From assembly GCF_026340565.1 (NCBI RefSeq), contig NZ_JAPEPB010000001.1, positions 4,936,501 to 5,000,500 of the forward strand: 64,000 nt of DNA, written 5' to 3'. The position numbers and the translations under genes are program-made. The notes under the pieces are model-generated. The model had not been told where the DNA came from. It made no database searches and worked only from the letters and a program-made list of their open reading frames with translations. This document shows, piece after piece, positions 1,274 through 36,418 of the stretch. The stretch's first letter is position 1. Each line of letters begins with the position of its first letter. The stretch is from Kitasatospora sp. NBC_01287 (lineage in GTDB: Bacteria > Actinomycetota > Actinomycetes > Streptomycetales > Streptomycetaceae).

Positions 1274-1345
1274 CTGTTGGACGGCCGAGATCGACAGGAC
1301 ACTCCCTAGGCCCGGACGTGCGCTCAGCGCGAGCTGTGCTGGCGC

Positions 1346-1915
1346 TCACCGCTCGTAGGACCACGCTTGGCCGGTCTGCCGGTACTGCTCGACGGGGATG
1401 GGCTCGACGCCGGCAGCCATGCGTGCGGTGTAGAGCAGGCCGTCGAGGTGATCGATCTCGTGGTGGATCAGGCGGGCGAGTCCGCGTTCGTAGGTGGTGG
1501 TGGCCACCTGGCCGTCCAGGGTGGTGGTCTCCACGGTGATCCGCAGCGGACGGGGGACCGAGCCGCGAACGTCGAAGAACGACAGGCAGCCCTCGAACTG
1601 CTCGTCCGCCTCGTCGGCGTGGTCGGTGATCCGCGGGTTCAGCAGGACGATCGGCGGGCTGCCAGGGTCGGCGGGCTGGACGATGGCGGCGGCCCGGCCG
1701 ATCCCGATCTGCGGTGCCGCGATGCCCATGCCCTTGGCGAAGGGGTGGACCTGGCCGATGCGCTCCATCGCGGTGAACAGCTTCTCGATGACCTGCTCGG
1801 CGGCCCCGCGCTCGGTGGGCAGGTCGAACGCTCGGGTGGGCTCCGCGAGGACGGGCTCGCCCTCCTGGACGACGCCGAGGTCACGCATCTGCTCGCTGGG
1901 CCGCACCTGGATCAC
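1346..1915 (-). CDS. def: peptide deformylase, accessory copy 1
   Basis: Metal-dependent enzyme that removes the N-formyl group from nascent proteins. All three deformylase motifs are present in the 189-residue product: Gly-Met-Gly-Ile-Ala-Ala-Pro-Gln (residues 62-69), Glu-Gly-Cys-Leu-Ser (108-112, Cys is a metal ligand) and His-Glu-Ile-Asp-His (152-156, two metal ligands and the catalytic Glu), so it should be active. The GTG start is chosen because AAGGGGAG sits five bases upstream and because its GTGA overlaps the stop of the upstream XRE gene by four bases, implying translational coupling. A homologue about 90 percent identical by eye lies at 12598-13167. It is an accessory deformylase paired with a regulator, not the housekeeping gene. 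Confidence 0.9.
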   Translation of the reverse strand: MIQVRPSEQMRDLGVVQEGEPVLAEPTRAFDLPTERGAAEQVIEKLFTAMERIGQVHPFAKGMGIAAPQIGIGRAAAIVQPADPGSPPIVLLNPRITDHADEADEQFEGCLSFFDVRGSVPRPLRITVETTTLDGQVATTTYERGLARLIHHEIDHLDGLLYTARMAAGVEPIPVEQYRQTGQAWSYER

Positions 1916-5043: not shown

Positions 5044-5333
5044 GCCCAACCCGCAACGGGTACGCACCGCTTCCAGCCCAGATCCACCAGGTTCGAGCTG
5101 GCGTCGCATAAAGGGGATGTCAAACGCCGGTTCCTCGCGTACTCCTCTCCGTCCCGCTCGCCGAACCCGGACCATCTGGCAGTACTGGCCCGTCCCGGCT
5201 TTGTCAGGGCCGCTTACCGCCCTCACCGGCGCCACCCGGATCAGACTGCCCTCAGCTCCACCGTCCTGCTGCGACAGGATCAGCGGCGAAGGTCTCTCAC
5301 CTCCACTCGAACCACAGCGCCTCACGGCGCACC

Positions 5334-5537
5334 CACGACGCCCGCCACACCGCTGCCACTGTCCTGCTGATCTTGGGTGTCCCCGATGCGGTCGTCGACG
5401 CGATCATGGGGTGGGAGCCCGGCAAGTCCGCTCGGATGCGCCGGCGGTACCAGCACCTGACGGGCCCGGTTCTCAGGGACACCGCCAACAAGATCGGTGA
5501 CTTGCTCTGGTCCGGTGTCTCCGGAACGGCCGAATAG
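5334..5537 (+). pseudogene. tyrosine integrase, C-terminal remnant
   Basis: Sixty-seven codons read the end of a phage-type tyrosine recombinase: His-Asp-Ala-Arg-His-Thr-Ala-Ala-Thr (the His-x-x-Arg box), Ile-Met-Gly-Trp, then Arg-Arg-Tyr-Gln-His-Leu-Thr containing the nucleophile Tyr. The closest match in the window is the last quarter of the intact integrase at 32818-34047. The N-terminal three quarters and the first catalytic Arg are missing; the sequence upstream is ISL3 flank. With att at 7971-8043 lying downstream, it has the same integrase-cargo-att order as the right-hand element and probably marks an older element in tandem. Confidence 0.75.
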
Positions 5538-7791: not shown

Positions 7792-7940
7792 GGATTGCAC
7801 CCTGCCAGAGGAGCGGTGCCCAGCGGGCGCGAATGCGATGGCTCGGTCAGAGAGGCCATCAGCCGGATGCGGTCGTGCACCCGCCCCATCCGGTGGATCC
7901 TGGCAACTGCAACCAAAACTGCAACCACGGAACGACGAAG

Positions 7941-7965
7941 GACCCGACCGCAGTGCGGTCGGGTC
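7941..7965 (-). terminator. tRNA-type terminator hairpin at the left att site
   Basis: GACCCGACCGCA pairs with TGCGGTCGGGTC. An almost identical hairpin follows the intact tRNA-Ser on its 3' side (about 35988-36014), so this is the displaced transcription terminator of the tRNA gene, copied along with the att site. Confidence 0.7.
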
Positions 7966-7970
7966 CTTCG

Positions 7971-8043
7971 TCTGCCCTGGCGGGCGGGTGCGGAGGATAC
8001 GAGATTCGAACTCGTGAGGGGTTGCCCCCAACACGCTTTCCAA
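7971..8043 (-). repeat. attachment site repeat, left (tRNA-Ser 3' half)
   Basis: Seventy-three bases identical to 36019-36091, containing the tRNA-Ser 3' part from the anticodon loop through the T arm to the acceptor and about 20 bp beyond. Similarity continues without gaps to the left, with scattered mismatches, from 7904 (35952 in the other copy), giving a 140-bp repeat in all. It stops exactly after the anticodon-loop CCAA on the right, the usual crossover zone of tRNA-integrating elements. The 5' half of the tRNA is absent here. Confidence 0.9.
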
Positions 8044-12508: not shown

Positions 12509-12597
12509 CACCCACAAATCGCCCTTGCGGGCGCTGCACCGGCGCGGGCTTTGGTGCGTCGGTGTTGACGACGGGCCCCAACGAGCTGTGCAGGTGC

Positions 12598-13167
12598 TCA
12601 CTTGTCATAGGACCATGTCTGGCCGGTCTGCCGGTACTGCTCGACAGGGATGGGCTCGGCGCCGGCAGCCATGCGTGCGGTGTAGAGCAGGCCGTCGAGG
12701 TGATCGATCTCGTGGTGGATCAGGCGGGCGAGTCCGCGTTCGTAGGTGGTGGTGGCCACCTGGCCGTCCAGGGTGGTGGTCCCCACGGTGATCCGCAGTG
12801 GCCGGGGGACCAAGCCGCGAACGTCGAAGAACGACAGGCAGCCCTCGAACTGCTCGTCCGTCTCGTCGGACCGGTCGGTGATCCGCGGGTTCAGAAGGAC
12901 GATCGCCGGAGCGTCCGGGCAAGCGGGCTGGACAATGGCGGCGGCCCGGCCGATCCCGATCTGCGGTGCCGCGATGCCCATGCCCTTGGCAAAGGGGTGG
13001 ACCTGGCCGATGCGCTCCATCGCGGTGAACAGCTTCTCGATGACCTGCTCGGCGGCCCCGCGCTCGGTGGGCAGATCGAACGCTCGGGCGGGCTCGGCGA
13101 GTACGGGCTCGCCCTCCTGGACGACGCCGAGGCCACGCATCTGCTCGCTGGGCCGCACCTGGATCAC
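12598..13167 (-). CDS. def: peptide deformylase, accessory copy 2
   Basis: A 189-residue homologue of the deformylase at 1346-1915, about 90 percent identical by eye and with the same three motifs (Gly-Met-Gly-Ile-Ala-Ala-Pro-Gln, Glu-Gly-Cys-Leu-Ser, His-Glu-Ile-Asp-His). The coding frame is intact. The GTG start again overlaps the stop of its upstream XRE gene and has AAGGGGAG five bases before it. Here, however, the XRE gene is broken by an IS110 element, a frameshift and a truncation, so the deformylase has lost its normal promoter and partner and may be silent or read from the insertion sequence. Confidence 0.85.
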   Translation of the reverse strand: MIQVRPSEQMRGLGVVQEGEPVLAEPARAFDLPTERGAAEQVIEKLFTAMERIGQVHPFAKGMGIAAPQIGIGRAAAIVQPACPDAPAIVLLNPRITDRSDETDEQFEGCLSFFDVRGLVPRPLRITVGTTTLDGQVATTTYERGLARLIHHEIDHLDGLLYTARMAAGAEPIPVEQYRQTGQTWSYDK

Positions 13168-13284
13168 CTGAACTCCCCTTGGGACGTATCGCGTTCGGGT
13201 CGGGCCCGGAACCGCCATTCCAGACGGTACCGGGCGTGGAGGGCCGGCGCGGACGTGCTCCAGGAGAAGACGCGCATCCCATCC

Positions 13285-13512
13285 ATACCTTTCTTCGTGG
13301 GTTAGTTCGGGTCATTCGTAAGATCGGGACACCCAGGGGCGTCCGGTATGGCTTCCATCGCATTGCCGCTGTCGTGGCTGAGGAGGATTGGCCGCCGGCG
13401 CCCCGCGACGACTCGACCGCTGATTGGGATGCGCGAACTGAATCGCTCGTATGGACGCGTCGGCGAGGTCGTCTGCTGGGAGCAATGGCAAGCACGACGG
13501 AGGGAGGATCTG
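13285..13512 (+). ncRNA. candidate bridge-RNA region of the IS110 element
   Basis: Noncoding left part of the IS110 element, upstream of the transposase. In the IS110 group this position encodes the structured bridge RNA whose two loops read the target and the donor DNA. I cannot fold it here and mark the whole interval; exact ends and loops are not determined. The assignment follows from family knowledge and the length of the empty stretch. Confidence 0.4.
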
Positions 13513-14727
13513 GTGCCCGAACTGTGGGCCGGGACGGATGCGGGCAAGGCCGAGCACCACTGCACGGTGATCGACACGGACGGGACCAAGCTCCTCTCCC
13601 GCCGGGTGCCGAACAACGAGCCCGAACTGCTGGAACTGCTCGGCGACGTCCTGGAGTTGGCCGACGGTGGCCCGGTCACCTGGGCGGTCGACCTGAACTC
13701 CGGTGGGGCCGCGCTGTGGATCGCGCTCCTGGTCAGCCACGGGCAGAAGCTGCTGTACATCCCGGGCCGGACCGTGCACCACGCCTCGGCCGCATACCGG
13801 GGCAGCGGGAAGACAGACGCGAAGGACGCGTTCGTCATCGCTGACACCGCCCGGATGCGGCGCGACTTGCAGCCGCTGGCCGAGACCAGCGAGATCGCGG
13901 TGGACCTGCGGATCATGACGGCCCGCCGCATGGACCTGTCGGCCGACCGGACCCGCGCGATCAACCGGCTCCGCGCCCAGCTGCTGGAGTACTTCCCGGC
14001 TCTGGAGCGGGCCTTCGACTACAGCACCTCCAAGACCGCCCTCATCCTGCTGACCGGTTACCAGAGCCCTGCCGCGCTGCGGCGGATCGGCCGGGCACGC
14101 CTGACAACGTGGCTGAAGAGCCACGGCGTCCGCACTGTCACCACCGCCAAGAGCGCCGCCGACGCCGCGGTCACCGCCGCCGAGGCCCAGCACACCGTCG
14201 TCCCCGGGGAGAAGACCGCCGCCACGATGGTCCACACCCTGGCCAGGGAGGTCATGGCCCTCGACGAGGAGATCGACCAGCTCAACACCCACATTGAGGG
14301 CCGGTTTCGCGATCACCCCGACGCCGAGGTGATCACCAGCATGCCCGGCATCGGCGACACGCTCGGCGCCGAGTTCGTCGCCGCCACCGGAGGCGACATG
14401 GCCGCCTTCGGCAGCCCCGACCGGCTCGCCGGTGTCGCCGGCCTGGCCCCCGTTCCCCGCGACTCGGGCAAGGTCAGCGGCAACCTGCAACGCCCGCGCC
14501 GCTACAGCCGACGCCTGCTGCGGATGTTCTACCTCTCCGCCCAGGTCGCCGCCATCCACTGCCCCGAGTCCAGGCGCTTCTACCAGCGCAAACGCACCGA
14601 GGGAAAATCCCACAAGCAAGCCGTGCTCGCCCTGGCCCGGCGCCGCCTCAACGTGCTCTGGGCCCTCATACGCGACCACCGCACCTTCGAAGCAACCACC
14701 GGCCGGCTCACTACTCCCGCACCATGA
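13513..14727 (+). CDS. IS110-family transposase
   Basis: A 404-residue RuvC-like DEDD transposase. N-terminal domain begins Trp-Ala-Gly-Thr-Asp-Ala-Gly-Lys-Ala-Glu-His-His (first Asp), with the Lys-Thr-Asp-Ala-Lys-Asp-Ala segment after residue 100 supplying further acidic residues. The C-terminal transposase_20 domain begins Ile-Thr-Ser-Met-Pro-Gly-Ile-Gly and contains the conserved Ser of the second catalytic half. The GTG at 13513 is chosen because GGAGGGAGG precedes it and the family's usual start aligns there; the frame stays open upstream but that part lies in the noncoding end. Length is normal and the frame intact, so the element may still be active. Confidence 0.9.
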   Translation: MPELWAGTDAGKAEHHCTVIDTDGTKLLSRRVPNNEPELLELLGDVLELADGGPVTWAVDLNSGGAALWIALLVSHGQKLLYIPGRTVHHASAAYRGSGKTDAKDAFVIADTARMRRDLQPLAETSEIAVDLRIMTARRMDLSADRTRAINRLRAQLLEYFPALERAFDYSTSKTALILLTGYQSPAALRRIGRARLTTWLKSHGVRTVTTAKSAADAAVTAAEAQHTVVPGEKTAATMVHTLAREVMALDEEIDQLNTHIEGRFRDHPDAEVITSMPGIGDTLGAEFVAATGGDMAAFGSPDRLAGVAGLAPVPRDSGKVSGNLQRPRRYSRRLLRMFYLSAQVAAIHCPESRRFYQRKRTEGKSHKQAVLALARRRLNVLWALIRDHRTFEATTGRLTTPAP

Positions 14728-15456
14728 CGTAGTCACCCGGCGTCACCGCTCAGGCTTGACAACATCATTGGGAATCCTCCTTGCGCCGTATTGGGGCGGT
14801 CCGAAGCGGCGCCGCCTCGGCGGTCATGGACGTCTCGGTGCCCTACACCGCAGGATCGAGGTCGGTGGGGAAGGCGACTTCGACTTCCAGGTGCTCGGTG
14901 GGCAGGCGGACCGCGCATTGGAACCAGCGGCCCATTTCTCCTCGCCGACCGAGTAGGCGTACTCGATCCAGACCTCCTCGCCCGAGTAGAGCGGGAAGCG
15001 GCCGTGCTCGTTCTCGAAGAGCAGCCACACTTCCTTGAACGCGTCGCGGTCGTGCTTGGCCTGCCAGTTCATCGCCTCTCCGTGGCAGGTCGCTGTGGGC
15101 GCGAGTTCGTCCCAGTTCAGCGGGTGTTCGCGGTAGTGGGCGTTGGAGCGTTCGGGCTCGCCGGGGTATCGGTAGACGCTGATACGGATCAGGTAGCGGG
15201 TGATCGGCTCGCTGCCAGTGTTGCGCAGCAGCCGACGCATCGTCAGCCGGTACTGGGCGCCGTCGAAGCCCAGGCGGGCGCCGTCGTGTGCGACGACGAT
15301 CGCCGACCCCGTCGCGTATGGTTGCTCGGGTCGGCGCGGGGCCGGTGGAGCCGCGGACGGCGTCGCGCGGGACTTGGCGGCCTCGAGGTCCAGCCAGCGC
15401 TTCCAGATGGCCTCGCCCGCATTGAGGATTTCCTCGGCTCGGCGGGCGAAGTCCTC

Positions 15457-17409: not shown

Positions 17410-18444
17410 TCATGCCCAGGCGCCGACCAACATCGGTTCGGGCCGGAGCTTGATCCCGGTTGCGATCTCGACCTGCGCTGAGAGTTCGGTGAGGGCTTGG
17501 GCGAAGCCCGTCGCGGTCGCTCCGTCGTGGGCGGTAAGGGTGAGGGCGCGGCGGTCCGAGCAACGGATGCCGTCAGCGATCTTGTTGCCGGGGCGGTAGC
17601 CGCTGTGTTCCAACAGCCACCCGGCGCTGGCCCGGAGCTGTCCATCGCTGTCGGTGTGAACTGGGCAGCCGGCGGCGGACCAGTGGTCGGCCTGGGTGAC
17701 GGTGACGGGTGAGTTGAGGAAGACCGATCCGGCCTGGCGGGCGTCGGGGCCGTGGGGGTCGAGGAGCAGTCCGCGGCGGTGGCGGTTGGCGAGGACGGCG
17801 GCCGTGACCTCGGCGACGGGCGGGCGGGTGCCGACGGGGACGCTGAGTTCGTCGGCGAGCGGCTGGTAGGCGACCGGGGCGGCGGCTGAGCGGATGAGGT
17901 GGAAGGTGACGGTGAGGATCGTCCAGCGGCCGGGATTGTTCTTGAAGCGGCTGTCGCGGTGCCGCAGTCGGCATGCTTCGGCGGGCAGGGTCCGCATGCA
18001 GTTCATCTCCCAGTCCCACACCGTCAGGTGGTCCAGGGTGTCGGAGATCTGCTGACCGTAGGCGCCGGCGTTCTGGACCGGGGCGGCACCGGTGGTGCCG
18101 GGTATGCCGGCCAAGCACTCGATCCCGGCCAGCTGTTCGGCAGCGGCCCAGGCAGTGAGGTCGGTGAGCGGTTGGCCGGCCTGGACGGTGACGTCGACCG
18201 TGGTGTCGTCGACGCGGGTGGCGGTGATGCCCTCGGTGTTCATCACCACGACGGTGCCGGGGTGTCCGGCGTCGGAGGCGATGACGTTGCTGCCGTGGCC
18301 CAGCACCACGGGCGCCTGGTCGTCGCGCTGCCCGATGGCCCTGACGGCGTCGGCCCAGTCGGCGGGGGAGGAGATCGTCAGGGCGTGTTCGGCGGGGCCG
18401 CCGAGCCGCAGGGTGGTCAGGGACGCGAGCGTGGTGCTGGGCAC
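17410..18444 (-). CDS. murB: MurB-like UDP-N-acetylenolpyruvoylglucosamine reductase
   Basis: A 344-residue flavoprotein of the MurB family, which reduces the enolpyruvyl ether made by MurA to give UDP-MurNAc. FAD-binding signatures are present: Leu-Gly-His-Gly-Ser-Asn-Val-Ile near residue 50 and Gly-Ile-Pro-Gly-Thr-Thr-Gly-Ala-Ala-Pro-Val-Gln-Asn-Ala-Gly-Ala-Tyr. The Arg-Asp-Ser-Arg-Phe-Lys segment, the Ala-Gly-Ser-Val-Phe-Leu-Asn segment with the proton-donor Ser, and the Arg-Pro-Glu-Pro near the C-terminus keep the catalytic Arg, Ser and Glu. The GTG start follows AGGAGG by seven bases and lies 11 bp after the serine hydrolase gene. Last gene of the operon. It is a mobile, second copy rather than the housekeeping murB. 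Confidence 0.88.
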   Translation of the reverse strand: MPSTTLASLTTLRLGGPAEHALTISSPADWADAVRAIGQRDDQAPVVLGHGSNVIASDAGHPGTVVVMNTEGITATRVDDTTVDVTVQAGQPLTDLTAWAAAEQLAGIECLAGIPGTTGAAPVQNAGAYGQQISDTLDHLTVWDWEMNCMRTLPAEACRLRHRDSRFKNNPGRWTILTVTFHLIRSAAAPVAYQPLADELSVPVGTRPPVAEVTAAVLANRHRRGLLLDPHGPDARQAGSVFLNSPVTVTQADHWSAAGCPVHTDSDGQLRASAGWLLEHSGYRPGNKIADGIRCSDRRALTLTAHDGATATGFAQALTELSAQVEIATGIKLRPEPMLVGAWA

Positions 18445-18455
18445 GGCTGGGCCTC

Positions 18456-19499
18456 CTAGGTTTCGTCGGTGATCGCCTTGAGTGCGAGAGCCCGCAGCGG
18501 GGCCAAGCGGGTGCGGTTGTCCTGGTGGTGGTAGACGGCGTTGGTGCAGATGGCCAGGTAGCGGCCGGTGGCCGGGGCGAGGTAGAGGCTGGTTCCGGTG
18601 AAGCCGTGGTGGTAGGCGACCCGGCCCTCGTCGGCGAGGATCCAGGCCAGGCCACGGTCGAGGCCCGCCTCGATCTCGGCCTGTGGCTGCATGCTGTGGG
18701 CGAGCCAGCGGCCCAGGGGCCCGCCGGTGGCGTGCGAGGTCAGCAGGTGGGTGGCGAAGGTGGCGAGGTCGGCTGGGGTGGTGAACACCCCGGCGTGGCC
18801 GGCGACTCCGCCGAGCAGGGCGGCGTTGTCGTCGTGCGGCATCCCCCACAGCCGGGGCCCGCCGGTCAACCGCTGCTCGGTCGGAGCGACCTGAGCGGAG
18901 CGGGGTACCGGTCCGTAGGTCGTGCTGGTCATGTCGAGGTGCTGCCAGAGCTCGGCCGCCAGCTCGTCCAGGCGCTGGCAGCGGTAGTTGGCCAGGGCCA
19001 GGCCGAGGAGGATGAAGCCGCGGTTGATGTAGCGGTGTCCGGCTCCGGGGTCGGCGATCAGCGGCTCTCCACAGATCAGGTCGGCCAGCGGCTCGGTGCG
19101 GTGGCGGTACTGGTCGAGGCGGGTGTCGGCCCGCAGGCCGGAGGTGTGGGCCAGGACCTGGTGAACCGTCACCCGGCCTCCGGGTGCCTCGGTCGGGATG
19201 CCGGTCAGCAGTTCGCGGATCGGGGTGTCCAGCGTGAAGCCGTCCATGAGGGAGGTGCCGACCAGCGGCCAGGTGGCCAGGACCTTGGTCAGCGACGCCA
19301 CGTCGTACACCGTGTCCGCCCCCGGCCGGGCGTCGCCGCACTCGGGGGCGACGACGCCGGAGGTCAGGTAGCCGGGCTCGGTGTCGAAGGTGCCGTGGGC
19401 GATGACTCCGCCGGGCACGGTGCCGTCAGCGGTCATCAGGTCCAGGCACTCGCGCAGGTCGGCGAGCGCGTTCGGCTTCCACGGCACGGTGTTGGTCAC
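18456..19499 (-). CDS. serine hydrolase, class C beta-lactamase/DD-peptidase fold
   Basis: A 347-residue protein of the beta-lactamase/penicillin-binding family. The catalytic motifs are Ser-Leu-Thr-Lys (Asp-Val-Ala-Ser-Leu-Thr-Lys), Tyr-Ile-Asn (Arg-Tyr-Ile-Asn-Arg-Gly) and His-Gly-Phe-Thr-Gly in place of Lys-Thr-Gly, typical of esterase- or DD-peptidase-like members. No signal peptide or membrane helix is visible, so it should act in the cytoplasm, unusual for a cell-wall peptidase and suggestive of a small-molecule substrate. The GTG start lies 2 bp after the murA-like stop, with CAGGAG overlapping that stop. Its place between MurA-like and MurB-like enzymes points to a shared pathway. Confidence 0.85.
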   Translation of the reverse strand: MTNTVPWKPNALADLRECLDLMTADGTVPGGVIAHGTFDTEPGYLTSGVVAPECGDARPGADTVYDVASLTKVLATWPLVGTSLMDGFTLDTPIRELLTGIPTEAPGGRVTVHQVLAHTSGLRADTRLDQYRHRTEPLADLICGEPLIADPGAGHRYINRGFILLGLALANYRCQRLDELAAELWQHLDMTSTTYGPVPRSAQVAPTEQRLTGGPRLWGMPHDDNAALLGGVAGHAGVFTTPADLATFATHLLTSHATGGPLGRWLAHSMQPQAEIEAGLDRGLAWILADEGRVAYHHGFTGTSLYLAPATGRYLAICTNAVYHHQDNRTRLAPLRALALKAITDET

Positions 19500-19501
19500 G
19501 G

Positions 19502-20803
19502 CTACTCCTGGTCGATCGTCAGGTCGGCACCGAGCGCGGCCAACTTCGGCAGCAGGCTGCCGTATCCGCGCCGCAGGTGATACATCCCTCGGATCGTAGA
19601 GGTGCCCTCGGCGGCCAAGGCGGCGATCACGAGAGCGGTCACCGCCCGGATGTCCTCCCCGGCCACGTCGGCGCCGGTGAGGGCGGACCAGCCCCGGACG
19701 GTGATCACCGAGCCGGTCGCGTTGACGGCGGCGCCGAACGCGGCCAGGGCCGGCAGGTGGGTGTCGCGCTGGGTGTAGATCCGCTCGTCGATGCGGGAGG
19801 TGCCCTCGGCCTGGGTGAGAAAAGCGGTCAGCTGGGGCTGCACATCGGTCGGGAAGCCGGGGTGCGGGCCGGTGGCCATCTGTACCGGCCGTGGCCCGGC
19901 CGGCGTGCTGACGGCCGTTCCGCTGTCCAGCGGGTCGAGCTGGATTCCGGCGTCGGCGAACACGGACACCAGCCCGTCCGGGAACGCGGCCGGCGGGAAG
20001 CCGTCCAGGTGGACGGTGCCGCCTGTGATGGCGGCGGCCAGCGCGATGGTGGCGGCCTCCAGCCGGTCCGGCGGCACGGTGAACACCCCGCCCCGGATGC
20101 GGTCGGTGCCGGTGACGTTCAGGGCCTTCCTGCCCCGCCACTCGATGCCGACGCCGGCCTGCGAGAGCAGGGCGGCGGTGTGGGTGACCTCGGGTTCCAC
20201 GCTGGGGTTGAGGATCGCGGAGGTGCCCGGGGTCCGGGCGGCCAGCAGCATCGCGGTGACCGTCGCGCCCAGGCTCGGCCCCCACGAGCGGGTCTCGGCG
20301 TCGGTGATGAACGGCAGCCGTTTGCCGGTGAAGCGGGCCCGTACCCGGCCCCGGCTCACCTCGACCTCGGCCCCGGCGGCTTCCATCGTGGCCAGGTGCC
20401 GGTCGATGTAGCGGGCGCAGAAGGCGTCCCCGCCGGGGGTGGGGAAGGTGACCTTGCCGGCGCGGGCCAGCAGGGCGCCGCCCATCACTGCGGTGGTGCG
20501 GATGCGCCGTCCGAGGTCGTCGGGGATGACGGGGAAGTAGGAGTCGGCCGGGCGGGTGGCGAACTCGCTACCGGTCACGCTGGCGCGGGTGCCGGTGCGG
20601 TGCAGGATGTCGGCGACCACGAGGGTGTCCAGGATCTCGGGGGCGCCGATCAGGGTCAGTGGGTCGTCGGCCAGGATCGCGGCGGCGTAGAGGTGCAGGG
20701 CGATGTTCTTGCTGCCCTGCACGGTGGTGGTGCCGACCAGGCGGTTGCCGCCGGTGATCCGCACGGCCCGCTCGTCGGCGGTGGTGGCGTTGGTGGTGGT
20801 CAT
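19502..20803 (-). CDS. murA: MurA-like enolpyruvyl transferase with Asp at the catalytic Cys position
   Basis: A 433-residue EPSP-synthase-fold enzyme aligned by eye to UDP-GlcNAc 1-carboxyvinyltransferase. Gly-Ser-Lys32-Asn33 matches the substrate-binding Lys-Asn; His-Pro-Gly-Phe-Pro-Thr-Asp-Val-Gln holds the general-base Asp; Arg-Gly-Tyr near the end holds the phosphate Arg. The flexible-loop motif is Pro-Gly-Gly-Asp126 where Escherichia coli has Pro-Gly-Gly-Cys115; this Cys-to-Asp change is known from mycobacterial and chlamydial MurA and confers fosfomycin insensitivity. ATG 20803 follows GGGAAGG by five bases; a GTG at 20809 would overlap the upstream stop (GTGA) and is an alternative start. 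Second enzyme of the operon. Confidence 0.88.
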   Translation of the reverse strand: MTTTNATTADERAVRITGGNRLVGTTTVQGSKNIALHLYAAAILADDPLTLIGAPEILDTLVVADILHRTGTRASVTGSEFATRPADSYFPVIPDDLGRRIRTTAVMGGALLARAGKVTFPTPGGDAFCARYIDRHLATMEAAGAEVEVSRGRVRARFTGKRLPFITDAETRSWGPSLGATVTAMLLAARTPGTSAILNPSVEPEVTHTAALLSQAGVGIEWRGRKALNVTGTDRIRGGVFTVPPDRLEAATIALAAAITGGTVHLDGFPPAAFPDGLVSVFADAGIQLDPLDSGTAVSTPAGPRPVQMATGPHPGFPTDVQPQLTAFLTQAEGTSRIDERIYTQRDTHLPALAAFGAAVNATGSVITVRGWSALTGADVAGEDIRAVTALVIAALAAEGTSTIRGMYHLRRGYGSLLPKLAALGADLTIDQE

Positions 20804-20805
20804 GG

Positions 20806-21546
20806 TCACCTTCCCTGGCTTCCGGCGGGGAAGAAGCCCCCGACCTGGGTCTTGGGGTAGAGCAGGGTATGCGCGCCGATCAGGGTGGCGGGCTGGAGCA
20901 CGGTGCCGGCCGGGACGATCACGCCGTCGCCGATCACCGCGCCGAACTTCGTCTGGCCGGTGGCCACTCGGTGGCCGTCGAGGTAGGCGCAGACCTCTTC
21001 GGTGGCCGGCTCGGTGACCGGGCCGGAGGTGACGCGCAGGCCGGTGGTGGAGACGAAAGCGCCGATGTTGACGCCCAGGCCGAGCACGGAGTCGCCGACG
21101 AAGCTGGTGTGCTTCATGAAGATCCCACCCGTCAGCAGGGAGCGGGTGACCTCGGCACCGAAGCCGATCCGGCAGTCGGGGCCGATGACGGTGTTGTCGC
21201 GCACCCGGGCGCCGGCCTCGATGACGGCGCCGGGGCAGACCAGCACCGGGCCGGTGACGAACGCGCCCTCGGCGATGACTGCTCCGGGCGCCACGACCAC
21301 GTGGCCGCGGACGGTGGCGCCGGGCTCGATGACCCCGGTTGGCTCCGGCAGCGGGATGTCCAGGTGACCGGCCATCAGGTCGGCGATGGCCTTCTTGAGG
21401 CCGAACACGGTCGGGCAGCAGTTCAGCAGGTGCAGCACGACCGGGTCGGTGACGTGCTCGGTGTCGAAGTAGTACGCGGGGGTGGTGCGGTAGTCGATGC
21501 GCTCCAACTCGGTATCGATGGTGGGCGCGTCGGTCAGCCGGTTCAT
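20806..21546 (-). CDS. left-handed beta-helix acyltransferase-like protein
   Basis: A 246-residue protein built mostly of hexapeptide repeats ([Ile/Val]-Gly/Ala-x4) from about residue 70 to the end, as in the C-terminal domain of GlmU and other sugar or sugar-nucleotide N-acetyltransferases. The N-terminal 65 residues are short and helical; there is no nucleotidyltransferase domain. Near the end Gly-Gln-Thr-Lys-Phe-Gly-Ala-Val-Ile-Gly-Asp resembles the GlmU active-site turn. The second ATG (21546) is chosen because GAGGAG lies nine bases before it and directly abuts the first ATG. The stop is 2 bp from the murA-like start. Most likely supplies an acetylated sugar nucleotide to the two Mur-like enzymes; not proven. 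Confidence 0.8.
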   Translation of the reverse strand: MNRLTDAPTIDTELERIDYRTTPAYYFDTEHVTDPVVLHLLNCCPTVFGLKKAIADLMAGHLDIPLPEPTGVIEPGATVRGHVVVAPGAVIAEGAFVTGPVLVCPGAVIEAGARVRDNTVIGPDCRIGFGAEVTRSLLTGGIFMKHTSFVGDSVLGLGVNIGAFVSTTGLRVTSGPVTEPATEEVCAYLDGHRVATGQTKFGAVIGDGVIVPAGTVLQPATLIGAHTLLYPKTQVGGFFPAGSQGR

Positions 21547-21603
21547 GGGCTGCATCTCCTCTCGGGCGAGCGAGTGGAAGAAGGGGACGTGTGGCCTGCG
21601 GAG

Positions 21604-21807
21604 CTACGAGACGGGCAGGTCCGGGGCGGTGGCCGGGACCTGGGCACTGGCCTCGGCGGGGTGGCTGTGGACCATGAGGCCGAGCAGCGCGAGCACGGGC
21701 AGGTGCAGGGCCGCCCAGCAGGCGGTCAGGAAGGTGCCGAGCCGGTCGTCGTCCGGCGCTGCGTGGCGGGGGCCGACGGCGGGCATGGCGGTGCTGTGCG
21801 TGGGCAT
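21604..21807 (-). CDS. small single-helix membrane peptide, 67 aa
   Basis: Short frame from an ATG, with a polar His/Asp-rich N-terminus, one hydrophobic helix (about residues 28-48, Leu-Thr-Ala-Cys-Trp-Ala-Ala-Leu...) and a Pro/Ala tail. It is the first frame downstream of the paired CCGTA-N7-TACGG sites and precedes the beta-helix gene by about 60 bp on the same strand, so it probably leads the operon. No family recognised, weak ribosome binding site, moderate confidence that it is translated. Confidence 0.5.
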   Translation of the reverse strand: MPTHSTAMPAVGPRHAAPDDDRLGTFLTACWAALHLPVLALLGLMVHSHPAEASAQVPATAPDLPVS

Positions 21808-21875
21808 GTGAGGGCCTTCGGCAACAGGGGGCGGATGGGGAGATTCCCAGTGAACCGCCGTGCCGAAGGCCGGAT

Positions 21876-21910
21876 CCGTAGCCGGGCTACGGGCCGTAAT
21901 ACGACTACGG
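21876..21910 (-). promoter_or_regulatory. tandem palindromic operator, two CCGTA-N7-TACGG sites
   Basis: Two 17-bp palindromes, CCGTAGCCGGGCTACGG (21876-21892) and CCGTAATACGACTACGG (21894-21910), with centres 18 bp apart, between the stop of the XRE-TPR gene and the start of the five-gene operon. Identical half-sites and spacing with different middles are what a dimeric regulator bound twice in tandem would select. The XRE-TPR protein encoded next door is the obvious candidate. A wider GCCTTCGGCA/TGCCGAAGGC inverted repeat lies between here and the operon start. Confidence 0.65.
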
Positions 21911-21911
21911 G

Positions 21912-23243
21912 TCAGATGATCTGTACGCCCGCACGGGAGGCGAAGTCTCGGACTCCGGGCAGCTTGCGGTCGTGCCGCAGCAGGTTGGTGGCGAGGTCGC
22001 GCACGGCCCCCCGCCGGAGTTCCTGCGGGGCCGCCTCCTCGGCCGCGAGCAGGGCCCGGTAGCACTGCTCGGGCTTGCCCCACTGGTCGAACGCGCGGGC
22101 CACATCGATGAAGAAGCGGGCCTGCCGCTCGGCGGTCGGCAGTGAGGCGGGGTCGATGGTGGCGGCCAGCTCGATAGCCCTGCCCGCGTCGCCGAGTTCG
22201 TAGTGGACGGATAGCTCGTGCAGGGCGATGCCCTGGATCCCGTCCACCAGCCCGGAGGTCCGCCCGGCTGCGGCAGCGCTGTCGGCTGCCTCGCGGATCA
22301 GCGAGTGTGCGTAGGAGCGATCACCAGTCTTCGCGGCGGTGTAGGCAGCCGTGGCGTACAGGTCGCCGCGGGTTGCCAGACGGGCGGTCTCGGGCACCGT
22401 GTTGTCGGCGAGGAGTTCCTCGGCGGCGACCACCACGATGTCAGTTGCCCTGGCCAGACTGCCCTGACGACGCCACGAGCTGGAGACCATCCGCTGGGAC
22501 TCGGCGACCACCAACGGGTCATCGCCCGCACGGGCGGAGGTCAACGCGCGGTCCGCGGTGATGGCCACCAGGTTGTTGTCGCCGGCCTTGATGCACAGCC
22601 GCACCGCGAGGTTGTAGAGCTGGGCGACATTGCGGGCTCGCTCCTCCGGCGTGCCGACCATCTGGGCGGCGGCGATCCGAACCGGCAGAGCCTCGGTGAG
22701 CGCGTCGTACTTCGCAGTCTTGAACTCCTGGCGCGACGTCAGTAGGGAAGCGGCTACGGACTCCTGGGTCGGCTCGCGCCGAGGCGCTGGAATCCGGCCC
22801 GGTCCGTAGAGCAGCAGATCTTCCAGCCCGGCCAAGGGCGAGGCTGTCTCGGCATTCGCGGCCTGCTGGCCGGCGACCGGAGCGAACAGGGCGGCAGCCG
22901 CCAGGGTCAGGAACGGGCGGCGTCGCACATCGTCCTCCTCGGCAGCGGAAGTGCTCGTCAGCGTAGCGGAGGCGGACTTGCGGGGGCGGGACCTCGGCCG
23001 ATCCGCGGCTGGCTGCGGTAAGGCCATCAGCTCGCTGAGCTCGCAGCCCAGCACCGCCGTGAGGCGACGCAGCAGGGTCAGATCCTTTACCTGTTGCAGG
23101 TCGCGTTCCACCAGCGACATCCAGACCTCGCTGCGGTCGAGCTCGGCGGCGAGACGGAGCTGCGTCCACTCCATCTCGGCGCGGCGGAGTGCGATGAACT
23201 TGCCGAACGTGATGCCACTGCTCCCCACGCTGGCCCCCGGCAT
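21912..23243 (-). CDS. XRE-family regulator with TPR-like C-terminal domain
   Basis: A 443-residue regulator. Residues about 12-65 are a Cro/C1 helix-turn-helix (Trp-Thr-Gln-Leu-Arg-Leu-Ala-Ala-Glu-Leu-Asp-Arg-Ser-Glu-Val). A short linker leads into a long all-helical domain (about 110-440) of antiparallel pairs like tetratricopeptide repeats; this layout is common in Streptomyces regulators that respond to small molecules. An Ala-rich hydrophobic stretch near residue 115 is a helix of this domain rather than a clear signal peptide. The stop lies 2 bp from the tandem operators, so the protein is well placed to regulate the Mur-like operon in cis. The ATG at 23243 has no strong ribosome binding site; GTG starts a few codons in are possible. 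Confidence 0.8.
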   Translation of the reverse strand: MPGASVGSSGITFGKFIALRRAEMEWTQLRLAAELDRSEVWMSLVERDLQQVKDLTLLRRLTAVLGCELSELMALPQPAADRPRSRPRKSASATLTSTSAAEEDDVRRRPFLTLAAAALFAPVAGQQAANAETASPLAGLEDLLLYGPGRIPAPRREPTQESVAASLLTSRQEFKTAKYDALTEALPVRIAAAQMVGTPEERARNVAQLYNLAVRLCIKAGDNNLVAITADRALTSARAGDDPLVVAESQRMVSSSWRRQGSLARATDIVVVAAEELLADNTVPETARLATRGDLYATAAYTAAKTGDRSYAHSLIREAADSAAAAGRTSGLVDGIQGIALHELSVHYELGDAGRAIELAATIDPASLPTAERQARFFIDVARAFDQWGKPEQCYRALLAAEEAAPQELRRGAVRDLATNLLRHDRKLPGVRDFASRAGVQII

Positions 23244-23362: not shown

Positions 23363-25093
23363 TCACCGTCGGCGGGTGGGGTCGTTGGCGGCTTTGGCGC
23401 CGGTCGGTACGGCGGGTCCGGTGAGCGTGGGGTTCGCGGTGGTGCTGGTGGTGCGCGCGCGGGCGGCCTGGGCGCGCTGGTCGATGCGGTCGGCGGTGGC
23501 GTTGCGTAGACGCCAGAGGAGGACTTCGGCGGGGCGGTCGGCGGTGGTCAGCTCCCGTAGCTGGGCGGCCTCGGTGAGAGCGCGACGGGGTAGCTGGCCA
23601 GCGGATTCCGCCTGGGCGAGGGCGGTGGCCAGGGCGGGCCAGGATGGGTCGGCGAGGATGCGCTGGGCGTGGTCGGGGATGGCGGTCTGGACTTGGGCGG
23701 CGAGGCGGTCTGCGGTCTTGGGGGTGGGGGTACAGCGGGTGAGGTCGGCGATGACGGGCTCGGCGGTCTGCCGGTAGGCGGTTCGCAGGTGAACGAGGGC
23801 TTGTTGGGCGGCGTGGGCTTGTTGCTGGTGGCCTCGGGTCTGGTGCCAGTGTGCGATGGCGATCACGGTGAACATGGCGGTGGACAGCAGGGCGGCGGTG
23901 GTGCCGCCTTCGCCGGAGTCGGCGGCGTGCAGGACTTGCTTGGCGGCTGAGCGGAGGGCGACCGCCTGCTGGTGTTCGGCGCGGATGCGGGATCGGTTGG
24001 CGTGGTTGAACGCGCTTGCGGCGGCTCGCAGTTCGGCGCGGGCGTGGTCGGGTGCGGAGAGGGCCGCAGTGTGGAGGAGTTCACCGAAGGCGGCGGCCTG
24101 GGCTTGGATGACGGCGTCGGACTCGGCGGGGTGGTGCTGGCCCTGGTAGGTGAGGAGGAGGGTTGACCGCAGGGTGGTCTCGGCCTGTCGCCAGCGGTCC
24201 GGTTCGACTGTGCCCCGTGCGGGCGTGGTGGGCTGCTGGGCAGCGAGCCGTTCGCGCAGGCGGTTGATGGACAGGTCGGGGGCGAGTGTGGAGCCGCCGA
24301 AGTAGACGGGCTCGCCGGCGGCGTTGACGTCGCCGGGGCGGGCGAGGCTGTAGCCGAGGACGTCGCCAGTCTCGGGTCCGATGCGGTAGCGGATCTGGAT
24401 GCCGAGGGCGGTGAGGGTGGAGAAGTACTCCTGCTCGTCGCGGCTGGCTGCGGTGACGGTCTGGGCCTGTTCCTGCAGCCACTCCTTCGCGGTCTGCTGG
24501 TGGCCAGCGCGCTGGGCCTTGGCCTGCTCGGCGCTGGTGGGCATCGGGGCTGCGGTGCCGTCACCCGAGTTGAGCTGGCGCAGGCCGAGTTCCTTCTCGA
24601 TCTTGCGGCACTCGGCCTGGGCGCGTTGGCCGTCGCGCTTGTTGCGGGGCCGGCGGCCGTCCTCGCGGACGCTGGTGGCCATGATGTGGATGTGGTCGTC
24701 GGCGTGACGTACGGCGATCCATCGGCAGCCCTTGTCGTCGCCATCGGGCGCGATGCCAGTGGCGTGGACGATGCGGCGGGCGACCTCGGCCCACTCGGCG
24801 TCGGTGAGGTAGCGGTCGCCGTGCGCGGTACGGACGGGACAGTGCCACACGTGCTGCGGGACCTTCGCGCCGAGGCGTTGCTCGCGGGCGCGTACGGGCT
24901 GGTCGAGGTAGTCGGCCAGTTCGGTCAGCAGGTCCTGGTGTTGGTCGAGGGGGGAGCGGCCCGGGTCGGGCAGGCCGGGCATGGCGAACGCGGCGACGAT
25001 GTGGGGGTCGGTGTGCTCGTCGCGCCGGCCGGGGCCGAAGAGGTAGGAGAGCAGACCGCGGGTGCGCGAGCCGGTGGAGACGTCAGGCACCAT
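23363..25093 (-). CDS. relaxase (mobilization protein)
   Basis: A 576-residue DNA relaxase that nicks the transfer origin and stays attached to the transferred strand. The N-terminus reads Arg-Gly-Leu-Leu-Ser-Tyr-Leu-Phe-Gly-Pro-Gly-Arg-Arg, as in actinobacterial mobilization relaxases; Tyr17 is a possible nucleophile. The metal-binding motif is His130-Ala-Asp-Asp-His134-Ile-His136. The C-terminal 350 residues are helical, Gln/Ala-rich and poorly conserved. The ATG at 25093 overlaps the mobC stop by 11 bp; the open frame upstream is the mobC gene read out of frame. Together with mobC it makes the element mobilizable. Confidence 0.88.
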   Translation of the reverse strand: MVPDVSTGSRTRGLLSYLFGPGRRDEHTDPHIVAAFAMPGLPDPGRSPLDQHQDLLTELADYLDQPVRAREQRLGAKVPQHVWHCPVRTAHGDRYLTDAEWAEVARRIVHATGIAPDGDDKGCRWIAVRHADDHIHIMATSVREDGRRPRNKRDGQRAQAECRKIEKELGLRQLNSGDGTAAPMPTSAEQAKAQRAGHQQTAKEWLQEQAQTVTAASRDEQEYFSTLTALGIQIRYRIGPETGDVLGYSLARPGDVNAAGEPVYFGGSTLAPDLSINRLRERLAAQQPTTPARGTVEPDRWRQAETTLRSTLLLTYQGQHHPAESDAVIQAQAAAFGELLHTAALSAPDHARAELRAAASAFNHANRSRIRAEHQQAVALRSAAKQVLHAADSGEGGTTAALLSTAMFTVIAIAHWHQTRGHQQQAHAAQQALVHLRTAYRQTAEPVIADLTRCTPTPKTADRLAAQVQTAIPDHAQRILADPSWPALATALAQAESAGQLPRRALTEAAQLRELTTADRPAEVLLWRLRNATADRIDQRAQAARARTTSTTANPTLTGPAVPTGAKAANDPTRRR

Positions 25094-25955
25094 GGCGGCC
25101 TCCCGGCAGGATGCGCTGGTAGGCGAGGCGGGCCTCGGCCGCGCAGGCGTGGAGGGCATCCAGGACCTGCATGGCGCGCTCGGGGAGCTCGCCCCGGTAG
25201 ATCTCAACCATGAGCTGGTTGAGGTTGTTGCCGGCGCGGTCGATCGCCCGCTGGTGGGTGCCGAGGTCCTTGGTGAGCCGGTCGACGGCCTTGCGGTCGG
25301 GCAGGGGGACGAAGCCGTCGGGGCGGCCGGTCTTCACGACCTCCAGGGCGACGCTCATGCCGGAGTTCGCCAGGAACGCGGAGCGCGAGAGTTCGAGCTT
25401 GGCGGCGGCGAGGTCGATCATGACTTTCTCGGTCGGTTCCACCGAGCAGGTGAGCTGGTCGTCGCGCTTGGTTCCGGAACGCGGCTGGTACATCCGCTTG
25501 GCAATCGCAGCGATGCGCTCGTCCTCCGGAAGCGGCGGCCGGTCGAGTACCGGAACGCGCTCGTGGAGGAACTCGGCGGCGGTCGCGGTCGGCATTTCAC
25601 GCACGACGCGCTCGGCGTCGCTGCGCTGCGGCGGCTCGGCATCGTGCTCGGGAAGCTCGTCCTGGACGTGGCCGCCCCCGGTCACGACCTCCTGGTCCGG
25701 CGCGCCCTCGCGCTGGTCCTGCCCCGCGACCCCTGGGGCGGGGTCAAGCGCAAAGTCCGCGGCGCCAACGGCGTTGTGGACTTTGCCCCAGCTTGCTCCG
25801 TCGTCGTCGTGACCGTGGCTGGTCCAGGGCAGCGCGTGCTTGACGCGGGCGAGTATGCCGCCACGGCCGGGCTTGTCGCTACCGGCTCCGCGTCGCTGGG
25901 CGTCCTGCTCGGGCGAGTCGGAAGCAGGGTCGAGGTGGTGCTGCTGGTCGGGCAC
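25083..25955 (-). CDS. mobC: MobC-like relaxosome accessory protein
   Basis: A 290-residue protein. The first 130 residues are polar, Pro/Asp/Glu-rich and probably disordered. The C-terminal half resembles MobC: a ribbon-helix-helix-like start (Val-Met-Ile-Asp-Leu-Ala-Ala-Ala-Lys-Leu-Glu-Leu-Ser-Arg-Ser-Ala-Phe-Leu) and the family's Ala-Gly-Asn-Asn-Leu-Asn-Gln-Leu motif. It would bind near oriT and help the relaxase open the DNA. GTG start at 25955; the 3' end overlaps the relaxase gene by 11 bp, so the two are translated together. Confidence 0.8.
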   Translation of the reverse strand: MPDQQHHLDPASDSPEQDAQRRGAGSDKPGRGGILARVKHALPWTSHGHDDDGASWGKVHNAVGAADFALDPAPGVAGQDQREGAPDQEVVTGGGHVQDELPEHDAEPPQRSDAERVVREMPTATAAEFLHERVPVLDRPPLPEDERIAAIAKRMYQPRSGTKRDDQLTCSVEPTEKVMIDLAAAKLELSRSAFLANSGMSVALEVVKTGRPDGFVPLPDRKAVDRLTKDLGTHQRAIDRAGNNLNQLMVEIYRGELPERAMQVLDALHACAAEARLAYQRILPGGRHGA

Positions 25956-32817: not shown

Positions 32818-34047
32818 ATGTCGAACACCCGCAAGCCCAACGGCGACTCCTCGATCTACGAGGGCAGCGACGGCCGCTGGCACGGTCGCGTCACGGTCGG
32901 CATCAAGGACGACGGCACCCCCGACCGCCGTCACGTCAGCGCCAAGACCCGCCCCGAGGTCACGGCCAAGGTTCGCAAGCTGGAGAAGCTGCGCGACAAC
33001 GGCACCGTGCCCAAGGCCGGCCAGAAGTGGACGGTCGGCAAGTGGCTGACCCACTGGATCAAGGAGATCGTCCCCGGCACCGTCAGCGAGAACACGTACG
33101 CCGGATACGAGGTCGCCGTCCGCGTGCACCTCATACCCGGCCTCGGCGCGCATCGCTTGGAGAAACTGGAGCCCGAGCACCTGGAGCGCTTCTACCGGAA
33201 GATGCGGGATGGCGGCAGCGCCGCCGGCACCGCTCACCAGGCCCACCGCACCGTCCGGGTAGCCCTCGGGGAGGCCGTCCGGCGTGACCACCTCACCCGC
33301 AACGTGGCCACGATCGCCAAGGCTCCGAAGCTCGAAGAGGAGGAGGTCGAGCCGTTCGAGATCGAGGAGGTCCAGGCGCTCATGGAGACGGCGCGCAAGC
33401 GCCGGAACTCCGCTCGCTGGCTCTTCGCGCTCGCTCTCGGTTTGCGGCAGGGCGAGGTGCTCGGGCTCCAGTGGAAGGACGTCGACTTCGCCCGCGGCGT
33501 CGCCTGGGTCCGCCGCGGCCGGCTGCGGCCCAAGTACCAGCACGGCTGCGGCGACCGCTGCGGGCGCAAGCCCGGCTTCTGCCCGCAGAAGGAGCCGATC
33601 CGGCGCGAGACCAAGGACACCAAGTCCCGAGCCGGGCGGCGCGCGGTGCCGCTGCCCGAGCAACTCGTCGTGATCCTCCGGCAGCACAAGGAGGAGCAGG
33701 ACCGCGAGCGGGCCCTCGCCCGCGACCTCTGGACGGATAAGGGCTATGTCTTCACCTCGGAGACCGGCGGGCCGCTCAACCCCAGCACCGACTACCACCA
33801 CTGGAAGCGGCTCCTGCGTGAGGCAGACATCCGCGATGGCCGCCTCCACGACGCCCGTCACACCGCCTCGACTGTCCTCCTCCTGCTCGGCGTGCCGGAG
33901 CGGATCGTCATGGCGATCATGGGCTGGTCCTCCACCGCGATGGCCCAGCGCTACCAGCACGTCACCGAGCCGATGCTGAACGATGTCGGCAAGAAGATCG
34001 GCGCGGCTCTGTGGGGCGCACTGCCCGGAGAGTTCGAGAAGGTCTAG
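32818..34047 (+). CDS. int: tyrosine-family integrase
   Basis: A 409-residue site-specific recombinase with an N-terminal arm-binding region, a SAM-like core-binding domain (about 70-170) and a catalytic domain. Catalytic residues are visible: Arg210 (Leu-Gly-Leu-Arg-Gln-Gly-Glu), His344-x-x-Arg347 (His-Asp-Ala-Arg-His-Thr), Gly-Trp370, and Tyr379 in Arg-Tyr-Gln-His. A Cys-rich insert (Cys244, Cys248, Cys255) sits between the first Arg and the rest. The gene follows xis by 10 bp and should catalyse integration at the tRNA-Ser repeat. A strong hairpin follows its stop. Confidence 0.92.
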   Translation: MSNTRKPNGDSSIYEGSDGRWHGRVTVGIKDDGTPDRRHVSAKTRPEVTAKVRKLEKLRDNGTVPKAGQKWTVGKWLTHWIKEIVPGTVSENTYAGYEVAVRVHLIPGLGAHRLEKLEPEHLERFYRKMRDGGSAAGTAHQAHRTVRVALGEAVRRDHLTRNVATIAKAPKLEEEEVEPFEIEEVQALMETARKRRNSARWLFALALGLRQGEVLGLQWKDVDFARGVAWVRRGRLRPKYQHGCGDRCGRKPGFCPQKEPIRRETKDTKSRAGRRAVPLPEQLVVILRQHKEEQDRERALARDLWTDKGYVFTSETGGPLNPSTDYHHWKRLLREADIRDGRLHDARHTASTVLLLLGVPERIVMAIMGWSSTAMAQRYQHVTEPMLNDVGKKIGAALWGALPGEFEKV

Positions 34048-34099: not shown

Positions 34100-34218
34100 G
34101 TCCGGAGGTAAGAGGCCAACGGGTGGCACGGCTTGTTTCGGTAGCACCGAAGTGGCAAGAGTCTGTTGCTGTCACGGTTGCAGGCTCATACTGAATGCCC
34201 CTCGGACAGAAGGTGCGT

Positions 34219-35958: not shown

Positions 35959-36018
35959 GACCAAAACCGAGACCACGAAACGACGAAGAACCCGACCGCA
36001 GCGCGGTCGGGTCCTTCA

Positions 36019-36091
36019 TCTGCCCTGGCGGGCGGGTGCGGAGGATACGAGATTCGAACTCGTGAGGGGTTGCCCCCAACACGCTTTCCAA
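36019..36091 (-). repeat. attachment site repeat, right (within tRNA-Ser)
   Basis: Exact partner of 7971-8043, covering the 3' half of the intact tRNA-Ser gene and about 20 bp downstream of it. The repeat ends in the anticodon loop. Confidence 0.9.
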
Positions 36092-36123
36092 GCGTGCGCC
36101 CTAGGCCACTAGGCGAATCCTCC
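36039..36123 (-). tRNA. tRNA-Ser(GGA)
   Basis: On the minus strand an 85-nt tRNA: acceptor GGAGGAT pairs with ATCCTCC, anticodon arm CACGC-TTGGAAA-GCGTG with anticodon GGA, a long variable arm as in serine tRNAs, and a T arm containing GTTCGAATC. CCA is not encoded. The 3' half is the attachment site, and the copy carried in by the element keeps the gene whole. Confidence 0.95.
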
Positions 36124-36357: not shown

Positions 36358-36418
36358 TGCGTTCCTGGTGGGACCAGGGGCGACGCGTTTGTCCGTGTGT
36401 CCCGATATCGTCGGTGGC

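Follow-up and report, generated by a model that had tools for sequence, protein, structure and literature searches.

The 64,000-nt stretch of the Kitasatospora sp. NBC_01287 genome analysed here (the window) harbours an element of ~28 kb at a tRNA-Ser gene. This element carries an operon (17410-21807, minus strand) coding for a small peptide, a left-handed beta-helix acyltransferase-like protein (LBH), a MurA-like enolpyruvyl transferase, a serine hydrolase (SHYD) and a MurB-like reductase. From sequence comparison it is proposed that the operon is a regulator-controlled mobile cassette in which enzymes related to those of peptidoglycan precursor synthesis act on a different substrate, a reading to which we assign a probability of about 50 %. 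The product is best read as an N-acyl aminosugar (nucleotide) bearing an enolpyruvyl or lactyl ether, and the operon would then not be a simple antibiotic bypass. The operon and its control region comprise the following features:

21912-23243, minus strand: regulator of 443 amino acids, XRE-type helix-turn-helix (HTH) with a TPR-like C-terminal part, NsdA-like
21876-21892 and 21894-21910: two palindromes CCGTA-N7-TACGG directly after the regulator stop codon, a probable operator
21604-21807, minus strand: peptide of 67 amino acids, first and optional gene of the operon, with one hydrophobic stretch and probably in the membrane (judged by eye)
20806-21555, minus strand: LBH, aminosugar N-acyltransferase-like (Hexapep, 4.4e-17)
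19502-20803, minus strand: MurA-like enolpyruvyl transferase of a separate subfamily, with Asp in place of Cys115
18456-19499, minus strand: SHYD, serine hydrolase with class C beta-lactamase fold (Beta-lactamase, 4e-34)
17410-18444, minus strand: MurB-like flavin reductase, an optional member (FAD_binding_4, 7.9e-17; MurB_C, 3.3e-11)

The original prediction of a tight operon behind a small peptide on a mobile element was borne out, and the gaps of 2-11 bp it mentioned hold for the enzyme genes. A 4-bp overlap would result if the MurA-like gene uses an alternative GTG start, possible at 20809. The spacing between the peptide gene and the LBH gene is 48 bp. The enzyme genes are under purifying selection, with dN/dS values of 0.16-0.48 against five relatives (four for MurB). 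As the gene set also recurs elsewhere, the operon is more than a chance assembly.

The host genome harbours five genes of the EPSP synthase family, including the MurA-like gene of the operon. One of these is aroA (360 bits), and two pass the cut-off of the murA equivalog TIGR01072 (392.7 bits), namely the copies in loci L060 (479.5 bits) and L061 (436.3 bits), while the HTH-fused copy in L062 (306.6 bits) fails. Two MurB genes are present, the other copy scoring 489.7 bits against PRK13903 and the operon copy 276.4. It had been argued that the operon genes would be the housekeeping ones if the host lacked any other murA and murB; with two further murA-equivalog copies and another MurB in the genome, this role was rejected. 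A recent duplication of a host MurA was rejected as well, since identity to the nearest host copy is 33 % and the operon enzyme falls in a separate group in the tree. The host chromosome also has a second cluster (L060, 9215-13220; ~2.575-2.579 Mb) with genes for a MurA, an LbH acyltransferase, a class II aldolase and a family-4 glycosyltransferase. Its MurA is 33 % identical to the MurA-like enzyme of the operon (P0003) and its LbH protein 35 % to the operon LBH (P0002), so that the pairing of LbH and MurA recurs.

Of 297 genomes of the family, 24 matched LBH (threshold 1e-15). In 22 of the 23 other genomes the best locus has MurA and SHYD adjacent, the exception being a remnant (L029). The MurA subfamily was found in 27 of 394 genomes at 1e-90. 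A scan of genome contigs for this subfamily yielded 43 loci in Streptomyces, Kitasatospora, Streptacidiphilus, Actinacidiphila, Streptosporangium, Microtetraspora, Nocardiopsis and Kutzneria, and plasmid records yielded further loci. After removal of 11 duplicates and of L066, which has no MurA, a non-redundant set of 66 loci remained (22 found via LBH, 43 via MurA, plus the window). MurA is present by construction in the 43 loci, and 29 of them have LBH and SHYD also. All four enzymes LBH, MurA, SHYD and MurB are encoded in 36 of the 66 loci, confirming the expected conservation of the four-gene set. LBH, MurA and SHYD with room for MurB, but none found, occur in 14 loci, and two more of this kind are cut at the 3' side. 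MurA with SHYD and MurB is found once, and MurA alone of the four 13 times (two of these loci being cut). Genes in the neighbourhoods were called with a home-made codon-usage caller. Several copies are decaying, with split or partial genes (e.g. L049, L051, L108, L109).

In eight of the 14 loci without LBH, MurA directly follows a gene of the epimerase family, with a NUDIX gene close by; the families were confirmed for L111 and taken from annotation for L034 and L035. In two others (L039, 9983-12434; L100, 3047-5535) a divergent MurA is followed by a thymidylate-kinase-like (TMPK-like) protein and a NUDIX protein (by eye in L100). L038 and L115 have an unnamed protein before MurA, L087 has MurA only and L108 is degenerate. 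The alternative partners belong to families handling nucleotides or nucleotide sugars, which argues for a different substrate. The MurA enzymes of the epimerase type are nested inside the LBH type in the tree, from which it appears that the partner set was swapped. A single IMG/VR contig, of 95 kb (L111), carries MurA, as the epimerase variant with NUDIX and a regulator. As for carriage by phages, a comparison of LBH with 50,697 phage records gave two matches, at 33 % identity.

Larger islands exist on linear plasmids of S. sp. F2, S. mirabilis and S. longwoodensis, where the four genes are accompanied by a regulator and by genes for a PIG-L deacetylase and a sugar-nucleotide-binding protein (RmlD-like in L036). 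Some of these islands add a CN-hydrolase, a peptide deformylase, an FxLD-type methyltransferase, a GNAT protein and a phosphotransferase. The PIG-L-type deacetylase could supply the free amino sugar for LBH. FxLD-system methyltransferase genes were also observed near MurA clusters of both types, in L096 (TIGR04364), in L035, L112 and L113 (by annotation) and in L107 and L109 (protein cluster k30). The FxLD protein of L096 has further methyltransferase and NUDIX stretches.

The MurA-like enzyme matches the EPSP synthase family over its full length (EPSP_synthase, 4.2e-57), scoring below the murA equivalog cut-off (325.1 vs 392.7 bits). For residue counts, 60 mobile MurA rows (6 of 66 were dropped as partial or containing stops) were compared with 33 of 34 other MurAs, L062 being left out; numbering follows E. 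coli. K22, R91, R120, R331, D369, R371 and R397 are kept in 59-60 of the 60 mobile enzymes, and D305 in 57. Position 115 is Asp in all 60; of the 33 others, 27 have Cys and 6 have Asp, and the host copies L060-L062 have Cys. Since six ordinary MurAs have Asp115 too, this residue is not special by itself. Position 124, hydrophobic in all 33 others, is Arg in 55 mobile enzymes, Gln or Lys in two and Leu in three. Position 329 is Glu in all 33 others and not Glu in 59 of the 60. L124 is presumed here to pack against the uracil of UDP-N-acetylglucosamine (UDP-GlcNAc). The presence of Lys at K160 was considered as a diagnostic of the subfamily and dropped, as 32 of the 33 other MurAs also have no Lys there. 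In a quick tree a branch with SH-aLRT 97 separates the 60 mobile rows from the 34 other MurAs (that of E. coli, three from the host and 30 from the phylum). It is suggested that the subfamily may use a substrate other than ordinary UDP-GlcNAc.

LBH is related to the acetyltransferase part of GlmU-type enzymes. Family searches found beta-helix matches only and no nucleotidyltransferase or uridylyltransferase domain; the best GlmU-type match spans residues 70-237 of 249, so LBH is not a bifunctional GlmU. The C-terminal part of TIGR03992 scores 112 bits (cut-off 292). A structural model (pLDDT 86.4) matches ST0452 (5z09) at Z 24.7, the next family following at 19.5. The motif H-x-x-F-x-G-D-S is conserved in all 50 LBH rows retained (from 52 loci with LBH).

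The SHYD protein of the window has the motifs SLTK, YIN and HHG of class C beta-lactamases (S12 family), and its model (pLDDT 92.5) has their fold. SLTK is conserved in 49 of 49 usable rows (from 53 loci), and YxN and HHG in 48 of 49 each. Class C enzymes were matched at Z ~32, among them a macrolactin acyltransferase (6kjp, 31.9), so acyl transfer is as possible as hydrolysis. No obvious signal peptide was seen at the start of SHYD upon inspection by eye. Of the 53 loci with LBH or SHYD, 52 have both, the degenerate L108 being the exception. The co-occurrence of these two, with MurB optional, suggests that an acyl group put on by LBH is later handled by SHYD, with enolpyruvyl transfer presumably in between. 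Relatives of SHYD (44-48 % identity) are found in another family of the class, in 21 of 394 genomes at 1e-60; genes resembling trehalose-phosphate synthase/phosphatase (by eye) lie near them in L168-L179.

The MurB-like enzyme falls below the TIGR00179 cut-off (128.5 vs 144.5 bits). S229, R159, E325 and N233 are kept in all 30 rows retained (from 37 loci), and Y190 in 29. K217 is replaced by Arg in 28 of 30 and Y254 by His in 25 of 30, both being residues that we take to contact the nucleotide phosphates. MurB was not found in 14 of the 50 uncut loci having LBH, MurA and SHYD, with detection by tblastn at 1e-10, which could miss a divergent MurB. In L055 and L069 the start of a deformylase gene overlaps the end of MurB. 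Deformylase genes lie near six other non-redundant operon loci, and near L113 by annotation.

The regulator gene and the palindromes were absent from the original prediction. The regulator has no Pfam match at 0.001 and resembles NF053720 (NsdA_fam_reg) with an E value of 1.3e-9 and 38 bits, below the cut-off of 75. Its gene has dN/dS values of 0.08-0.23 against five relatives, and a codirectional relative of at least 55 % identity is present in 17 other loci. Upstream regions were compared for 65 of the 66 loci (L109 was left out). The 17-bp palindrome CCGTA-N7-TACGG, present as a tandem pair in the window, was found in all 18 loci whose regulator is codirectional and shares at least 55 % identity with P0006, and in none of the 47 others, while local shuffles lead one to expect it in 0.035 loci. 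Two exact sites lie 18-19 bp apart in 13 of these loci and 67 bp apart in L049; in the remaining four a single exact site is present, with a near-match next to it in three. Support for an operator comes from this comparison across loci, the pattern having first been seen in the window. The window alone is not significant (22 of 100 shuffles give at least two matches at one mismatch), and the 9.5-Mb host genome is not enriched, with 8 sites vs 14 for the reversed control, only the window pair being in tandem. That the CCGTA/TACGG arms are invariant carries no weight, as this pattern served to select the sites. An RNA terminator was judged less likely, since complementarity at the inner pairs holds in just 22, 11 and 25 of the 32 sites. 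Loci with a different, divergent regulator (pFRL4 type) have another palindrome, TTTGCAT-N3-ATGCAAA, which is exact in L036, L085, L112 and L114 and has one mismatch in L096, L107 and L113. Because the first palindrome occurs in exactly the 18 loci with its regulator subtype, regulator and putative operator appear to travel with the operon as one unit. The small peptide is likely accessory. It was matched (tblastn) in 11 of the 22 other loci of the LBH set (L007-L028), and it is weakly constrained and fast-evolving (dN/dS 0.33-0.85 against six relatives).

From these families we infer a scheme that covers substrates, the product and its function, DNA binding and either repression or activation. 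LBH would acylate an aminosugar, as sugar-1-phosphate or nucleotide-sugar. The MurA-like enzyme, with Asp in place of Cys115, would move enolpyruvate from phosphoenolpyruvate to a hydroxyl of the acylated sugar, and the MurB-like enzyme, where present, would reduce the enolpyruvyl ether to a lactyl (muramic-type) ether. Via a serine acyl-enzyme, SHYD might remove or transfer the acyl group, or close or open an ester or amide on the new carboxylate. Control of the operon would be exerted by the XRE-type regulator through binding to the palindromic operator. The idea of peptidoglycan-precursor-like enzymes, stated earlier, holds; the UDP-MurNAc-like product suggested along with it is doubtful in view of the divergence of MurA (below the cut-off, E329 and L124 lost), the missing MurB in 14 of 50 loci and the other partners in 10 loci.

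A more specific version may be envisaged, in which the cassette is a mobile autoregulator, acting as a signalling or hormone-like system that spreads horizontally. LBH, MurA, SHYD and, where present, MurB would make a small muramic- or enolpyruvyl-type aminosugar (nucleotide), to be sensed by the adjacent XRE/TPR regulator that would occupy the tandem operator. The same logic of regulator plus MurA would be reused with epimerase/NUDIX or TMPK/NUDIX for chemically distinct signals, in a family unlike the known Streptomyces butyrolactones and furans. This version is speculative and has a low probability.

Several findings weigh against a different substrate and a dedicated product. Ordinary UDP-GlcNAc activity of the MurA-like and MurB-like enzymes is possible, judging from their family scores: the former scores above the threshold of the broader PRK09369 subfamily (340 vs 297 bits) and the latter above that of the actinobacterial PRK13903 (276.4 vs 231 bits). 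The roles given here to positions 124 and 329 are presumed, and the HTH-fused host copy L062 has Pro124 and Asp329. The tree is a quick one with a long-branch warning at the aroA outgroup, so that it is unsure which side of the branch lies outside. One remnant locus (L029/L066) has LBH but no MurA, and in all 12 neighbourhoods read for the relatives of SHYD in the other family (L168-L179) neither LBH nor MurA accompanies them. Finally, no constantly linked ligase, exporter, transporter or glycosyltransferase was seen in the neighbourhoods, a minority of the neighbours having been run against a family library.

The second-best reading, which we consider unlikely, is a mobile bypass or target replacement, in which drug-insensitive early peptidoglycan enzymes, joined in some loci by a deformylase directed against deformylase inhibitors, protect the host from antibiotics. 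The Asp-115 form of MurA is, we assume, insensitive to fosfomycin, and all 60 mobile enzymes have it where the host copies L060-L062 have Cys. The intact catalytic residues, a MurB above the PRK13903 cut-off, the deformylase genes near six other operon loci and L113, and the location of loci on elements and plasmids are also in line with a bypass. However, Asp115 occurs in 6 of 33 ordinary MurAs as well, and the changes at positions 124 and 329, the separation in the tree and the score below the equivalog cut-off speak against a bypass. MurB is not found in 14 of 50 loci, an epimerase or TMPK-like protein with NUDIX stands instead in 10 loci, SHYD has no clear role and LBH lacks a uridylyltransferase domain. 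Of the two ideas put forward originally, the start of an undescribed sugar-nucleotide pathway therefore fits best, and the bypass is less supported.

A further reading is cell-wall remodelling, in which a variant UDP-muramate with another N-acyl group would enter peptidoglycan via MurC-F and MraY of the host, for instance as protection from phage lysins or enzymes like lysozyme. The intact catalytic residues of the MurA and MurB homologues, next to an aminosugar acyltransferase-like protein, would suit this, and a ligase in the operon is unneeded if the host supplies it. MurB is often missing, though, and its K217 and Y254 (presumed contacts of the nucleotide phosphates) are altered; SHYD is unexplained and variants with an epimerase or TMPK-like protein exist. 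We regard remodelling as improbable. Less probable still is anti-phage defence, with the enzymes making a toxic or signalling nucleotide-sugar on infection. The location on a mobile element, the pairing of regulator and operator and the modular swaps of partners are reminiscent of such systems, but the five operon proteins match none of 5027 PADLOC models at an E value of 0.01 (the regulator gave a weak, generic HTH hit), by which a known PADLOC defence system was rejected, and no constantly linked effector-like gene was seen in the neighbourhoods.

Mobility of the cassette is suggested by the anatomy of the element, in which the following features were recognized:

7904-8043: left attachment-site repeat, 94 % identical to 35952-36091 over 140 nt
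12598-13218, minus strand: peptide deformylase, a possible extra member of the cassette, next to MurB in some relatives
23363-25168, minus strand: relaxase, MobA/VirD2-like (PF03432, 3.7e-9)
32818-34047, plus strand: tyrosine integrase (PF00589, 4e-26)
35952-36091: right attachment-site repeat, overlapping the 3' part of the tRNA-Ser gene
36038-36123, minus strand: tRNA-Ser(GGA), the integration target

With an integrase, attachment repeats at a tRNA gene and a relaxase, this is by gene anatomy an integrative mobilizable element; NikA-like and DnaB-like genes also lie between the repeats. It looks mobilizable rather than self-transmissible, since no FtsK-type transfer gene was seen among the element proteins scanned, a subset of all. 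A dnaX gene lies at 36368-38713 of the window, and likewise a dnaX-like gene (by eye, cluster k9) is found ~0.5-15.5 kb from the operon in five non-redundant loci (L042, L053, L054, L056, L058), pointing to the tRNA-Ser-dnaX site as a possible hot spot of integration. The peptide deformylase module is present in two copies in the window (1330-2486 and 12582-15230, with stretches 88-94 % identical), the second with an IS110 gene (13348-14727) inside. Together with an integrase-like stretch (5328-5414, 74 % identical to 33841-33927), the two copies point to an older, related element left of the attachment repeat. The gene beside the tRNA (34195-35958) codes for 587 amino acids with partial matches to the PADLOC candidate PDC-S39 (3.7e-14) and to DUF7380.

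If the proposal of a cassette acting on a different substrate is true, the opening chemistry of peptidoglycan synthesis has been recruited and re-specialised on actinomycete mobile elements for making a small molecule. Through its conserved Asp115, the MurA subfamily would then allow the whole family to be searched for, and by way of the operator the operon might be turned on directly so as to detect what it makes. Plasmid records label members of the subfamily UDP-N-acetylglucosamine 1-carboxyvinyltransferase, which may mislead work on fosfomycin targets.

A published description of the operon was not found in searches of an open-access library, and the nearest known systems resemble it in part. 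SHYD shares the fold and the Ser-x-x-Lys, Tyr and His-Gly motifs with the class C-fold hydrolases (AmpC, AmpH, PBP4B/YfeW, macrolactin acyltransferase), with weak matches to PBP4B and AmpH, but its identity is at most 20 % among the 50 structural alignments listed and it is, judged by eye, without an obvious export signal. The murQ-murP-yfeW operon of E. coli for MurNAc recycling also pairs such a hydrolase, PBP4B, with enzymes for muramic sugars (PMC5061867). Unlike the present operon it is catabolic with an etherase, and as far as it is described there it has no MurA, MurB or LBH (PMC5061867). LBH shares the beta-helix fold of the C-terminal acetyltransferase domain of GlmU and of the archaeal ST0452 (root mean square deviation 2.2 over 196 residues), but at 26 % identity, far below the TIGR03992 cut-off and with no nucleotidyltransferase domain found. 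The MurB-like enzyme agrees with PRK13903 in score and in the five conserved residues and differs from it by K217R, Y254H and its optional place in the operon. MurA proper (TIGR01072) is matched over the full length and in the catalytic residues, and the NF006873 subfamily cut-off is passed, while the mobile enzymes differ from it in score, in their place in the quick tree and in having Asp115, with Leu124 and Glu329 mostly replaced. NikO and PolA, of nikkomycin and polyoxin synthesis, are MurA relatives acting in natural-product nucleotide chemistry. A NikO-type enolpyruvyl transferase was rejected as the closest match, the operon enzyme having a far better match to MurA (232 bits) than to NikO (4fqd, 104 bits).

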